Part shown: piece by piece, positions 39,739 through 43,224 of the stretch | How positions within the stretch are numbered: the stretch's first letter is position 1 | Layout of the letters: the number at the start of each line of letters is the position of its first letter | Origin: Halolamina litorea | GTDB taxonomy: Archaea; Halobacteriota; Halobacteria; Halobacteriales; Haloferacaceae | Assembly (NCBI RefSeq): GCF_026616205.1 | Contig: NZ_JANHGR010000001.1 | Location: 1,860,001 to 1,924,000, forward strand | Length of the DNA stretch: 64,000 bases | Direction of reading: 5' to 3' | Notes under the pieces: model-generated | What the model saw: the letters and a program-made list of their open reading frames with translations, nothing else | The model's database searches: none | What the model was told of the DNA's origin: nothing | Program-made: the position numbers and the translations under genes

Positions 39739-40593
39739 TTAGACGCCGGGGCTGGCGAACCACCACGCGAGGAACACCACGACCCCGCCGAGTACCGTCG
39801 AGGCCACCGCGTGGAGTCGGAGGCGGTCGAGCGTCTCGTGGGCGTCGGCGTCGACGCTCAACGCATCGTGAACCTCGCTCCCGAGTTCACAGCGCGGGAG
39901 AAAGTCCATCGCCACGTGGAGGAACACGCCGGTGGCGAAGCCGAACACGACCCCGTTGATCCGCGGGTCCGCCGGTAGCGTGACCGTGCTCGCGAGCACC
40001 GCGACGACGCCGACGCCCGCCGCAGGGAGCAACACAGGGAACCACGAACGGCCGTTGCGGGTCAGTCGGTCGGCCGCCGCGTAGCCCGCCGGCCCCTTGT
40101 GGGAGACGATTGCGATGCCGAGTAGCAGCCCCACGTCGGGCATGTTGCCGTAGACGATGCCGATGATCGCACCCGCCGCGGCCGCGTGGGCGGTCAGCTG
40201 TGCGACCGTCGAGTCCATCGGCATGTCGACGTGGGAGAGCCGGTGGCCGATCGTGTGGGCACCGAAGCCGACGATGATCCCCAGAGCGACTCCGAGCCCG
40301 CCGAACCGGAGGTGGTGACCGAGCGCGTCGGGAAGGAGGAAGAGGCCGACGCTGGTCACCATCGCGCCGCTGGCGAGCCCCCCGCCCCAGACGAGCGCGC
40401 CCGCTTGCTCGTTCGTCCGAAGTGCCAGCCAGACCCCGCCGGTCATCGCGGCGAAGGCGACCCAGCCGATCTGGATCGGCTTCCACGCCCCCGTCACGGC
40501 CGCGATTCCGGTGGCCGCGACCAGCAACAGCACGCCCGCGGCCCCGACCAGCCGCTCCCCGCGGAGTGGCTGCTGCGATACCTGAGTAGCCAT
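39739..40593 (-). CDS. ZIP-family divalent metal transporter
   Basis: A 284-residue membrane protein with about eight helices. Candidate metal-binding motifs are HTIGHRLSH in the middle and SHKGPAGYAAADRL in TM5, the counterpart of the ZIP HK-x-P-E-G motif; a further His lies in ATGVFLHVAMDFLPRCE. ZIP proteins import Zn, Fe or Mn. ATG 40593 precedes the first helix. It is in the same direction as the next gene, 51 bases apart. Confidence 0.8.
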   Translation of the reverse strand: MATQVSQQPLRGERLVGAAGVLLLVAATGIAAVTGAWKPIQIGWVAFAAMTGGVWLALRTNEQAGALVWGGGLASGAMVTSVGLFLLPDALGHHLRFGGLGVALGIIVGFGAHTIGHRLSHVDMPMDSTVAQLTAHAAAAGAIIGIVYGNMPDVGLLLGIAIVSHKGPAGYAAADRLTRNGRSWFPVLLPAAGVGVVAVLASTVTLPADPRINGVVFGFATGVFLHVAMDFLPRCELGSEVHDALSVDADAHETLDRLRLHAVASTVLGGVVVFLAWWFASPGV

Positions 40594-40644: not shown

Positions 40645-41877
40645 TCAGCGCGGGAGCTTCTCCGGCTCGCCGTCCTGTCGGATGTACTCGACGGCGATCC
40701 CCGTGATCGGCGCGTCGGAGGCCATCGCCGCCTCGCGGGCGGCGTCGAGGTACGCCTCCGTGATCGAGACCGTCGCGTCGTAGGCCGCGGCGTCGGTGTC
40801 GGCGAGCAGGTACTCGGCGGTAACGGGAGTGAGTTGGCCCTCGCGTACGTCGGCCGCAAAGTCGTCCACGTCGTCGAGCCAGATCTGGGCGCCGATGATC
40901 GAGAGCACCACCGCACGCTCGAACTCCGCGGAGAGGGGGACGCCCGCCTCGCGGAACATCTCGACCATCCCGTGGTAGATGACGCCGACCCGGCCGTACT
41001 GGGTGAGCAGGTACGGGAGGTCGAGTTCGGCCGTCTCGAACAGCGCCGGCGGGTCCTCGAAGGCGGGGTGTTTGTACTCCTCGCGGAGCGCGTCGCGGGC
41101 GGCCTCGGCGTCGACCTCGTCGGTGTCGGCCCCGTTCCGGAGGTCGGCGACTGTGTCGGCCTCGGCGGCGGCGACGGCCTCGCTCATGAGCTCGCGGAAG
41201 CGCGGGTCCCGGTCCTGGTGGGCCTCCGAGCGCTCGACGGCGGCGTCGTAGGCCGCCCGGACCGAGTCGGGGAACGCGGCGAACTGCTCCTGTACCGCGG
41301 CCTGCAGCACCTCCTGTGCGATCCCGGCGACGCGGGCGCGATCCCCGGACGCCAGTTCGAAGTCGACGGCGAAGTCCTCGTACTCGCCGTCGTTGATGGC
41401 GTCGCGCATGTCGCCGTCGAGCAGGGCGACGACGACCAACTCAGCCACCTCGCAGGCGCGGCGGGTCTCGCGGACGAGGTCGGCGGCGTCGACGTCGCTG
41501 TCGGCGCGTCGGCGGCGGAGTTTCGCGATCGGATCGGTCGCGCGCCGCCCCGAGACGGGATCGACGCCGGGGGGTGCTGCGGCCGTGGCTCGGCGGTAGA
41601 CGTGTGCGAGCGTCAGTTCGACCGGGAGGGTCAGCTTGGTGTCGTAGGCGAACTCGACCGACTCGCGACCGAACTCGTCGGCCAGGGCGGCCTCGACGTC
41701 GGTGTAGGCGTCGTCGACGATCCCCTCGATCTCGGCTTCGACGCGGCGCTGGAGGCGGATCGCGGCCAGTTCGAGCGAGCCGCCCGCGCCGTAGTGACTG
41801 AACACCGCACGGGCGGGCGTCGGCAGGGCGTCGACGCTCGCGAGGCTGTCGGCGAACCCGCGGAGCGGTCCGGACAT
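40645..41877 (-). CDS. Class I isoprenoid-synthase-like protein (unverified function)
   Basis: A 410-residue all-helical protein. Two regions resemble polyprenyl diphosphate synthases: a degenerate first Asp motif ALLDGDMRDA (151-160) followed by ELASGDRARVAGIAQEVLQ, and a second Asp-rich motif GAQIWLDDVDDF (329-340) followed by DVREGQLTP (343-351), the counterparts of the FQ-x-x-DD-x-x-D helix and its flanking segment. It may condense isoprenyl units or bind prenyl diphosphates; the weak first motif makes a non-catalytic or altered role possible. ATG 41877 is divergent from an extended GGGP synthase gene. The longer frame upstream runs antisense through that gene and is not real. Confidence 0.62.
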   Translation of the reverse strand: MSGPLRGFADSLASVDALPTPARAVFSHYGAGGSLELAAIRLQRRVEAEIEGIVDDAYTDVEAALADEFGRESVEFAYDTKLTLPVELTLAHVYRRATAAAPPGVDPVSGRRATDPIAKLRRRRADSDVDAADLVRETRRACEVAELVVVALLDGDMRDAINDGEYEDFAVDFELASGDRARVAGIAQEVLQAAVQEQFAAFPDSVRAAYDAAVERSEAHQDRDPRFRELMSEAVAAAEADTVADLRNGADTDEVDAEAARDALREEYKHPAFEDPPALFETAELDLPYLLTQYGRVGVIYHGMVEMFREAGVPLSAEFERAVVLSIIGAQIWLDDVDDFAADVREGQLTPVTAEYLLADTDAAAYDATVSITEAYLDAAREAAMASDAPITGIAVEYIRQDGEPEKLPR

Positions 41878-41930
41878 GGCTTTCGGTGGGCCGACCAGCG
41901 GTTTGAAGCTGTCCATCCCCGAACCGACCG

Positions 41931-41940
41931 GGTTTTTGCT
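41931..41940 (+). promoter_or_regulatory. TATA-like box of the extended GGGP synthase gene
   Basis: GGTTTTTGCT is centred about 27 bases before ATG 41962. The 84 bases between the divergent starts also hold a CTTCAAACC-like box for the minus-strand gene. Confidence 0.5.
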
Positions 41941-41961
41941 ACCCGGCAGCGAGGAGTCTGT

Positions 41962-43224
41962 ATGCGACGGCATCTCGCGGCGCGGGGCGAGCGGGTCGCC
42001 GACCTCGCTCGGCTGCTCGCCCGGAGTGCGCTCGACACCAACCCGGTTCCCGACTGGGATCACGTGACGAAAGTCGACCCCGAGGGGGCGAAGAAGCTCC
42101 CGCTGCTGTACCCGCTCTGGCTCGCGGAGACCGACGCCGTCTCCGTCGGCGGCTCCGCCGACGTGACGCCCGAAAACACCGCGGCGGCGTTCGACCTGTT
42201 GACCCCGCTGTCGACGCCGGTCTGTCACGAACCCAGCGGCGCCGACCACGTCACTGAGGAGAGCCACGACGCCGCCGACCTGTTGCTCGTACCGGAAGTG
42301 CTCAACGGCGACAGCGAGGCGCTCGTCGGCACCCTCGGCGCCGCCGTCGAGAGCGTCCGCGAACGACTGGCCCCGGACCTGATCGCGCGGAAGGCGCCGT
42401 GGCTCCCCGACCGGGTCGCCGACTGGCTGGCGAGCGTGGCGACCTCGGTGATGCTCTCCGACGCCGCCTTCGAGGCGTACATCGTCCAGAACCCCGACAG
42501 CGCCGCCGCTCGGGAGTCCGGCGTCGGCCCCGACGACGTGCTCGACGCGCGGGAAGCCAAACGGCGGGCGATGGCCGCCGACCGGCATCTGGAGTCCGAG
42601 ATCCTCTATCTGGAGTACTCCGGAACGTTCGGCGGCGACGAGGCCGTCGAGGCACTCGAACTCATCGACGGGGCGATGGAACGCTCGCGGGTCTGGTACG
42701 GCGGCGGCCTCGCCGACCGTGAGGACGTCCGGACCGTCCGCGAGGCGGGGGCCGACACCGTCGTCGTCGGCGACGCGTTCCACCGCGTGGCCGAACGGGA
42801 GGCCGAGATCCTGCAGGCGGCGGAGGCCGACCTCGACCCCGACACCGATCCGGAGCGAATCCGGGAGTGGGTCGCCGACCGCGTCGGCGCCGACGGCCCC
42901 GGTGCCCGGTACCTCTCGACGGTGCCGGGCGTCGACGACCCGCTCGGACTGGCGCGGGAGTACACCGGCGCGACAGTCCGGTCGTGGCTCGAACTCCGTG
43001 CACGGCGTGAGCGGGCACGGGAACGCGGCGAGGGGGTGCCGGTGATCGACATACAGCGGACCGCGCTGCGCGCGGCGCTCGCGCCGGTGGTCGAGGACCC
43101 CGATACGGTGGCGGCGACGGTCGCTCGGGCCGCCCTCTCGGGGCGGGGCGCGGGCAACGGCGACGGCTCCCACGGCTCCGAACAGCTCAGCCTCTCGCTG
43201 TTCGCCGACGGGACGGCAAACTAA
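41962..43224 (+). CDS. Extended GGGP synthase (PcrB-like) paralogue
   Basis: A 420-residue protein. The TIM barrel of (S)-3-O-geranylgeranylglyceryl phosphate synthase is clear: WDHVTKVDP (residues 32-40), PEVLNGD, AYIVQNPDS, YLEYSGTFGG (216-225), WYGGGL (245-250) and VVVGDA (267-272), the phosphate and Mg sites. The enzyme makes the first ether bond of archaeal lipids from glycerol-1-phosphate and a prenyl diphosphate. Two additions are unlike the roughly 210-230-residue enzyme: a helical insert (about 129-163) and a C-terminal extension (about 285-420). This is likely a second copy. ATG 41962 has a TATA-like box at leaderless distance. Confidence 0.8.
   Translation: MRRHLAARGERVADLARLLARSALDTNPVPDWDHVTKVDPEGAKKLPLLYPLWLAETDAVSVGGSADVTPENTAAAFDLLTPLSTPVCHEPSGADHVTEESHDAADLLLVPEVLNGDSEALVGTLGAAVESVRERLAPDLIARKAPWLPDRVADWLASVATSVMLSDAAFEAYIVQNPDSAAARESGVGPDDVLDAREAKRRAMAADRHLESEILYLEYSGTFGGDEAVEALELIDGAMERSRVWYGGGLADREDVRTVREAGADTVVVGDAFHRVAEREAEILQAAEADLDPDTDPERIREWVADRVGADGPGARYLSTVPGVDDPLGLAREYTGATVRSWLELRARRERARERGEGVPVIDIQRTALRAALAPVVEDPDTVAATVARAALSGRGAGNGDGSHGSEQLSLSLFADGTAN

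Follow-up and report, generated by a model that had tools for sequence, protein, structure and literature searches.

Central to the making of the archaeal membrane is the attachment of a second isoprenoid chain, a step credited to a single enzyme of the UbiA family, DGGGP synthase (DGGGPS; geranylgeranylglycerol-phosphate geranylgeranyltransferase, NCBIfam NF009521, represented structurally by MjDGGGPS). DGGGPS was reported in nearly all archaea sampled and is regarded as universal except in a few lineages; Thaumarchaeota have no orthologue, and an unrelated enzyme was suggested to serve them instead (PMC6431249). The motifs of the UbiA-type enzyme have been likened to those of FPPS and GGPPS, and it is expected to work by a similar mechanism (PMC9385802). 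The first ether bond is made by a protein of unrelated fold, the TIM-barrel GGGP synthase (PcrB, PF01884), a soluble prenyltransferase to glycerol phosphate. PG and PGP-Me that carry two C20 chains, as C20-C20 diethers, were reported from a Halolamina strain (PMC8160830), yet the Halolamina genome studied here is without DGGGPS, so the second chain must be attached by something else. Here we describe a gene, called q, which in our opinion probably encodes a soluble, Mg2+-dependent class I prenyltransferase (GGGP + GGPP -> DGGGP), a non-orthologous replacement of the membrane-bound UbiA-family DGGGPS, and which most likely has taken the place of that enzyme in roughly one in five of the Halobacteria sampled.

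Within the 64,000-nucleotide stretch of Halolamina litorea DNA that was analysed (the window), q lies on the minus strand at 40645..41877, with an ATG start at 41877 and a stop at 40645, and encodes 410 amino acids, exactly as an earlier note, made from the letters of this DNA, had claimed. The reading frame is open upstream of this ATG due to the high G+C content; close homologues share the same ATG, and the divergent neighbouring gene starts 85 bp away. Full-length homologues were found in 63 of 294 Halobacteria genomes (a 64th match, in genome G120, was a chance match and was dropped from the count), and the family alignment, with 54 sequences that are 38-84% identical to q, contains 59 invariant columns, which together establish q as a real gene. 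Searches of Pfam and NCBIfam with q returned zero families at E<=10, a PDB sequence search (phmmer and hmmsearch) gave one chance-level match, to glutamine synthetase (E 0.17-0.38), and no convincing homologue beyond Halobacteria was found in 247 genomes of the phylum. The protein is a member of a previously undescribed haloarchaeal family with no sequence match in Pfam, NCBIfam or the PDB. Our literature search, conducted without most subscription journals and without bioRxiv, retrieved no paper that treats q or a loss of DGGGPS from these genera. Unlike the UbiA-type DGGGPS, to which it has no sequence relation, q has no UbiA match, a predicted soluble class I fold and no transmembrane segment, the highest 19-residue hydropathy mean being 1.15.

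The earlier note had guessed an isoprenyl diphosphate synthase fold, and structure prediction bore this out. An AlphaFold2 model of q built with the family alignment (pLDDT 91.2, pTM 0.89) and an independent model of a shorter member from the genus Halovenus (pLDDT 95.7, pTM 0.92) were compared by Foldseek to the PDB, and in each case all 50 of the 50 best matches were all-trans prenyl diphosphate synthases, with best E-values of 1.3e-2 for q and 5.9e-4 for the shorter protein and a TM-score of up to 0.58 between the latter and the GGPP synthase of C. glutamicum. The homology of q to prenyl synthases rests on these predicted structures, with their modest scores, since the hhalign comparison of q with archaeal prenyl synthases and with haloarchaeal squalene/phytoene synthases was not significant; an ungapped profile-window scan of q against prenyl synthases likewise gave noise. 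In the model of q, helices 131-163 and 317-338 each terminate in an Asp motif, as do helices D and H of the prenyl synthase fold.

The order of the motif regions is also that of the all-trans synthases (PF00348: GGPPS, FPPS, octaprenyl and heptaprenyl synthase), and the likeness is closest in the second one. Motif 2 (residues 330-355, AQIWLDDVDDFAADVREGQLTPVTAE, 40813..40890, minus strand), at the C-terminal end of helix 317-338, occupies the place of the second Asp motif and of the DLxEGKxT region, and reads AQIWLDDVDDxxxDxxEGQLTPVTAE. Its A330, Q331, L334, D335, D336, D338, D339, D343, Q348, L349, T350, P351, T353, A354 and E355 are invariant, so that the resemblance to the catalytic helix of isoprenyl diphosphate synthases, which had been claimed from the sequence, proved exact and constant in all 54 sequences. 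Both families have a Gln before the second Asp motif and DxxEG[KQ]xT after it (QIWLDDVDD..D..EGQLT in nearly all members of the q family, against FQxxDDxxD and D..EGKxT), although q has one more residue between Q and DD and a shorter loop. A pattern built post hoc on this region, Q[IVL]x1-2DDxxDx3-24Dxx[EDN][GN][KQ]xT, matched only q homologues and canonical prenyl synthases when run over 6333 ORF stretches of 100 aa or more.

The first motif differs from that of the prenyl synthases. Motif 1 (residues 154-169, DGDMRDAINDxEYEDF, 41371..41418, minus strand) sits at the C-terminal end of helix 131-163, whose limits come from the model, and takes the position of the first Asp motif; it has DGDMRDAINDxE..DF instead of DDxxD and is not followed by RRG. 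The observation that this motif departs from DDxxD was correct, and the protein is probably, as had been supposed, unlike an ordinary chain-elongating synthase, but the word degenerate does not apply, given that D154, G155, D156, D159, N162, D163, E165 and D168 are invariant in 54 of 54 sequences, with D159xxxD163 in i/i+4 spacing at the helix end. Because its acidic residues are invariant in the whole alignment, motif 1 reads as a distinct, fully constrained acidic motif rather than as a decayed DDxxD. The GD helix that had been proposed downstream of it (SGDRARVAG) could not be upheld, as the GD is not conserved and the residue that is invariant there is Q188. For three further regions we infer the correspondence from order, position and spacing, the profile-profile comparison being not significant. 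Residues 79-90, (D/E)TKLxLPxxLTL (41608..41643, minus strand), would be, judged solely by position, order and spacing, the counterpart of GGKRxRP, the IPP site; here K81 is kept as K or R, and leucines (L82, L84) appear to substitute for the arginines. Residues 217-228, SExHQxxDxxFR (41194..41229, minus strand; S217, H220, Q221, D224, F227 and R228 invariant), would correspond to GQxxD, and residues 288-298, PYxxTQYxRVG (40984..41016, minus strand; Y294 and R296 invariant), on the helix before motif 2, to the KT(A) motif of helix G, in an hhalign register that is not significant alone. The GKxxG loop that follows the second motif in PF00348 synthases is absent from q, which has no Pfam match to that family.

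The result that decides most here is the distribution of q, which is almost perfectly complementary to that of DGGGPS in Halobacteria. With NF009521 at its cut-off of 296 bits as the measure, DGGGPS was over the cut-off in 229 of the 294 genomes, only one of which (G240) bears q; G287 was scored as DGGGPS-present from an E-value of 7e-87, and weak, paralogue-level matches in G024, G181 and G266 were scored as absent. On this basis 62 genomes have q without DGGGPS, one (G240) has both, 229 have DGGGPS without q, and two (G188 and G201) have neither. The Fisher p of 4e-60 for this exclusivity ignores phylogeny and rests on far fewer independent events than genomes, as the 63 q-bearing genomes belong to 15 genera in four families. 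Each of the two states, however, is present in four families, and a swap is seen inside one genus, g63, where G160 carries q without DGGGPS and G157 and G239 carry DGGGPS without q; genus g75 shows an intermediate state, with both genes in G240 and DGGGPS only in G267. We acknowledge that exclusivity was scored for one gene, q, and that some other gene may have an equal distribution. The two genomes with neither gene are drafts, and contain no UbiA protein resembling DGGGPS, which could reflect either an assembly gap or a third solution.

A closer comparison of the UbiA-family genes of nine q-bearing and three q-less genomes gave the same picture. In all three q-less genomes a UbiA protein is a clear DGGGP synthase by NF009521 (365-381 bits against the cut-off of 296), whereas no DGGGPS was found among the UbiA proteins of the nine q-bearing genomes, those examined being heme O synthase, MenA, lycopene elongase and a carotenoid-linked family. 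Some loci carry a UbiA-like protein of about 404 aa fused to a lycopene-cyclase (CarR) domain (L161, L163, L195 and L200), and shorter relatives of it without the CarR domain were seen in L165, L168 and L193, with a distribution independent of q. This fourth UbiA family was considered as the DGGGPS substitute and found less likely, since relatives occur in q-less genomes and in G240, which has a normal DGGGPS.

It could also be argued that the anticorrelation with DGGGPS is a matter of lineage history, and that q works in an unrelated side pathway, as a class I terpene cyclase or a head-to-head synthase, an option that the earlier note had in part put forward. A class I fold with no IPP site does have the look of a terpene cyclase, and the distribution of q is clustered by genus. 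No terpene cyclase and no squalene or phytoene synthase, however, is present in the 50 best structural matches of either search; q has no Pfam match to the latter family (PF00494), of which its own genome already has two genes; and the swaps within genera, together with the need for a substitute wherever an enzyme considered universal among archaea, but for a few lineages (PMC6431249), is lost, speak against an unrelated role. We regard this explanation as very improbable.

The genomic neighbourhood of q points to ether-lipid assembly. In the window, an 84-bp intergenic region (41878..41961), found with the same spacing in the Halolamina loci L003, L004 and L006, is common to q and to a divergent gene on the plus strand (41962..43224) for its partner, a diverged geranylgeranylglyceryl phosphate synthase of the PcrB type, here GGGPS2 (PF01884, E 3.2e-24), assigned to the first ether bond. 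GGGPS2 keeps the TKxDP, EPS, NPDS, YLEYSGTFGG and YGGG stretches when compared to solved GGGPS structures, has at its C-terminus an extension of about 130 aa that bears no annotation, and falls under every NCBIfam GGGPS cut-off (at best 166.7 against 169). This long form was found in 36 of the 294 genomes, all 36 of which have q, and in 34 of them it lies no more than 4 kb from q, the two genes being divergent, co-directional or convergent; 16 q-bearing genomes yielded no other type of GGGPS. As for the 27 genomes with q and without GGGPS2, the ones examined in genera g27 and g37 have, divergent from q, the gene for the canonical haloarchaeal digeranylgeranylglycerophospholipid reductase (archaeol reductase; NF041385, 772 bits against a cut-off of 700), while the examples from genus g13 have no lipid-gene neighbour of these kinds. 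A second GG reductase lies near q in several loci, and a canonical prenyl synthase lies immediately downstream of it in three (L057, L065 and L069). The latter, all from genus g42, are a third and diverged PF00348 synthase (L057:8823-9746, L065:5817-6740 and L069:5895-6818).

With such neighbours, q could be thought of as a prenyl diphosphate synthase altered in chain length or product, such as a C25 geranylfarnesyl synthase, whose product goes to GGGPS2, while another protein replaced DGGGPS. The predicted fold would fit, as would the genomic link to GGGPS2 and, in the three loci above, to a prenyl synthase. Two to three canonical PF00348 synthases are nonetheless kept in q-bearing genomes (the search of the window's own genome gave two loci, both other than q), so q does not replace these enzymes; the IPP-site arginines, by the correspondence given above, as well as RRG and the GKxxG loop are missing from q; 27 genomes have q without the GGGPS2 it would supply; and the mutual exclusivity with DGGGPS would stay unexplained. 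The specific idea of a C25 synthase was rejected due to the prenyl synthases already present and to the fact that the distribution of q tracks the loss of DGGGPS, and we consider the reading as a whole quite unlikely. GGGPS2 itself cannot be the DGGGPS substitute, and was rejected as such, because it is absent from 27 q-bearing genomes, all of them without DGGGPS.

Alternatively, q might itself be non-catalytic and serve as partner or scaffold while a UbiA paralogue or GGGPS2 forms the second ether bond. Prenyl synthases with inactive subunits exist, such as component I of the B. subtilis heptaprenyl synthase, and provide a precedent, and GGGPS2 always occurs with q (36 of 36). The acidic residues of both motifs, however, are invariant in 54 sequences, which is unlike typical inactive subunits, so that the non-catalytic role that had been suggested for q from its first motif is not supported; moreover, GGGPS2 is absent from 27 q-bearing genomes, and the fourth UbiA family is found alike in genomes with and without q. 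A partner role therefore seems unlikely to us. Among the options raised at the outset, that of prenyl transfer came nearest, as the genome context and the exclusivity with DGGGPS point specifically to the second prenyl transfer of ether-lipid synthesis.

If q is indeed a soluble DGGGP synthase, the reaction, metal site and acceptor that we infer would be as follows. Mg2+ held by D156/D159/D163 and D335/D336/D339 would bind GGPP and ionise it, and the resulting allylic cation would be attacked by the sn-2 hydroxyl of GGGP, generating DGGGP and the second ether bond; the former IPP site of the synthase fold, its arginines lost, would have been turned into the site for GGGP. The UbiA-type DGGGPS, which is proposed to share with q the reaction and the position in the pathway, also has two Asp-rich motifs and, as it resembles FPPS and GGPPS in motifs and mechanism, the two proteins would be mechanistic analogues. 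Such a replacement, if true, would have direct implications for archaeal lipid biology, because a step credited to one enzyme would have been swapped within one class, Halobacteria, and q would supply the lipid gene that many of these genomes are missing; it would also bear on how the second chain is attached in Thaumarchaeota, and provide a soluble enzyme for archaeal lipid production in vitro or in E. coli.

It is possible, although we would stop short of calling it probable, that q and GGGPS2 form a portable soluble module which makes both ether bonds, displaces the ancestral enzymes (the UbiA-type DGGGPS in q-bearing genomes and, in 16 of the genomes sampled, canonical GGGPS) and travels as a unit between haloarchaeal families. 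The distances of q and GGGPS2 correlate over 29 loci (r 0.68, a value reached in 0 of 2000 permutations), and G082, a genome of family f1, carries at locus L040 a q and GGGPS2 pair of the type found in family f6, which suggests that the two genes moved jointly, by horizontal transfer, between families. On the other side of q, downstream and in the same direction, the window holds a gene for a weakly ZIP-like transporter (39742-40593, minus strand; PF02535 below the cut-off), conserved in that place in Halolamina loci only.
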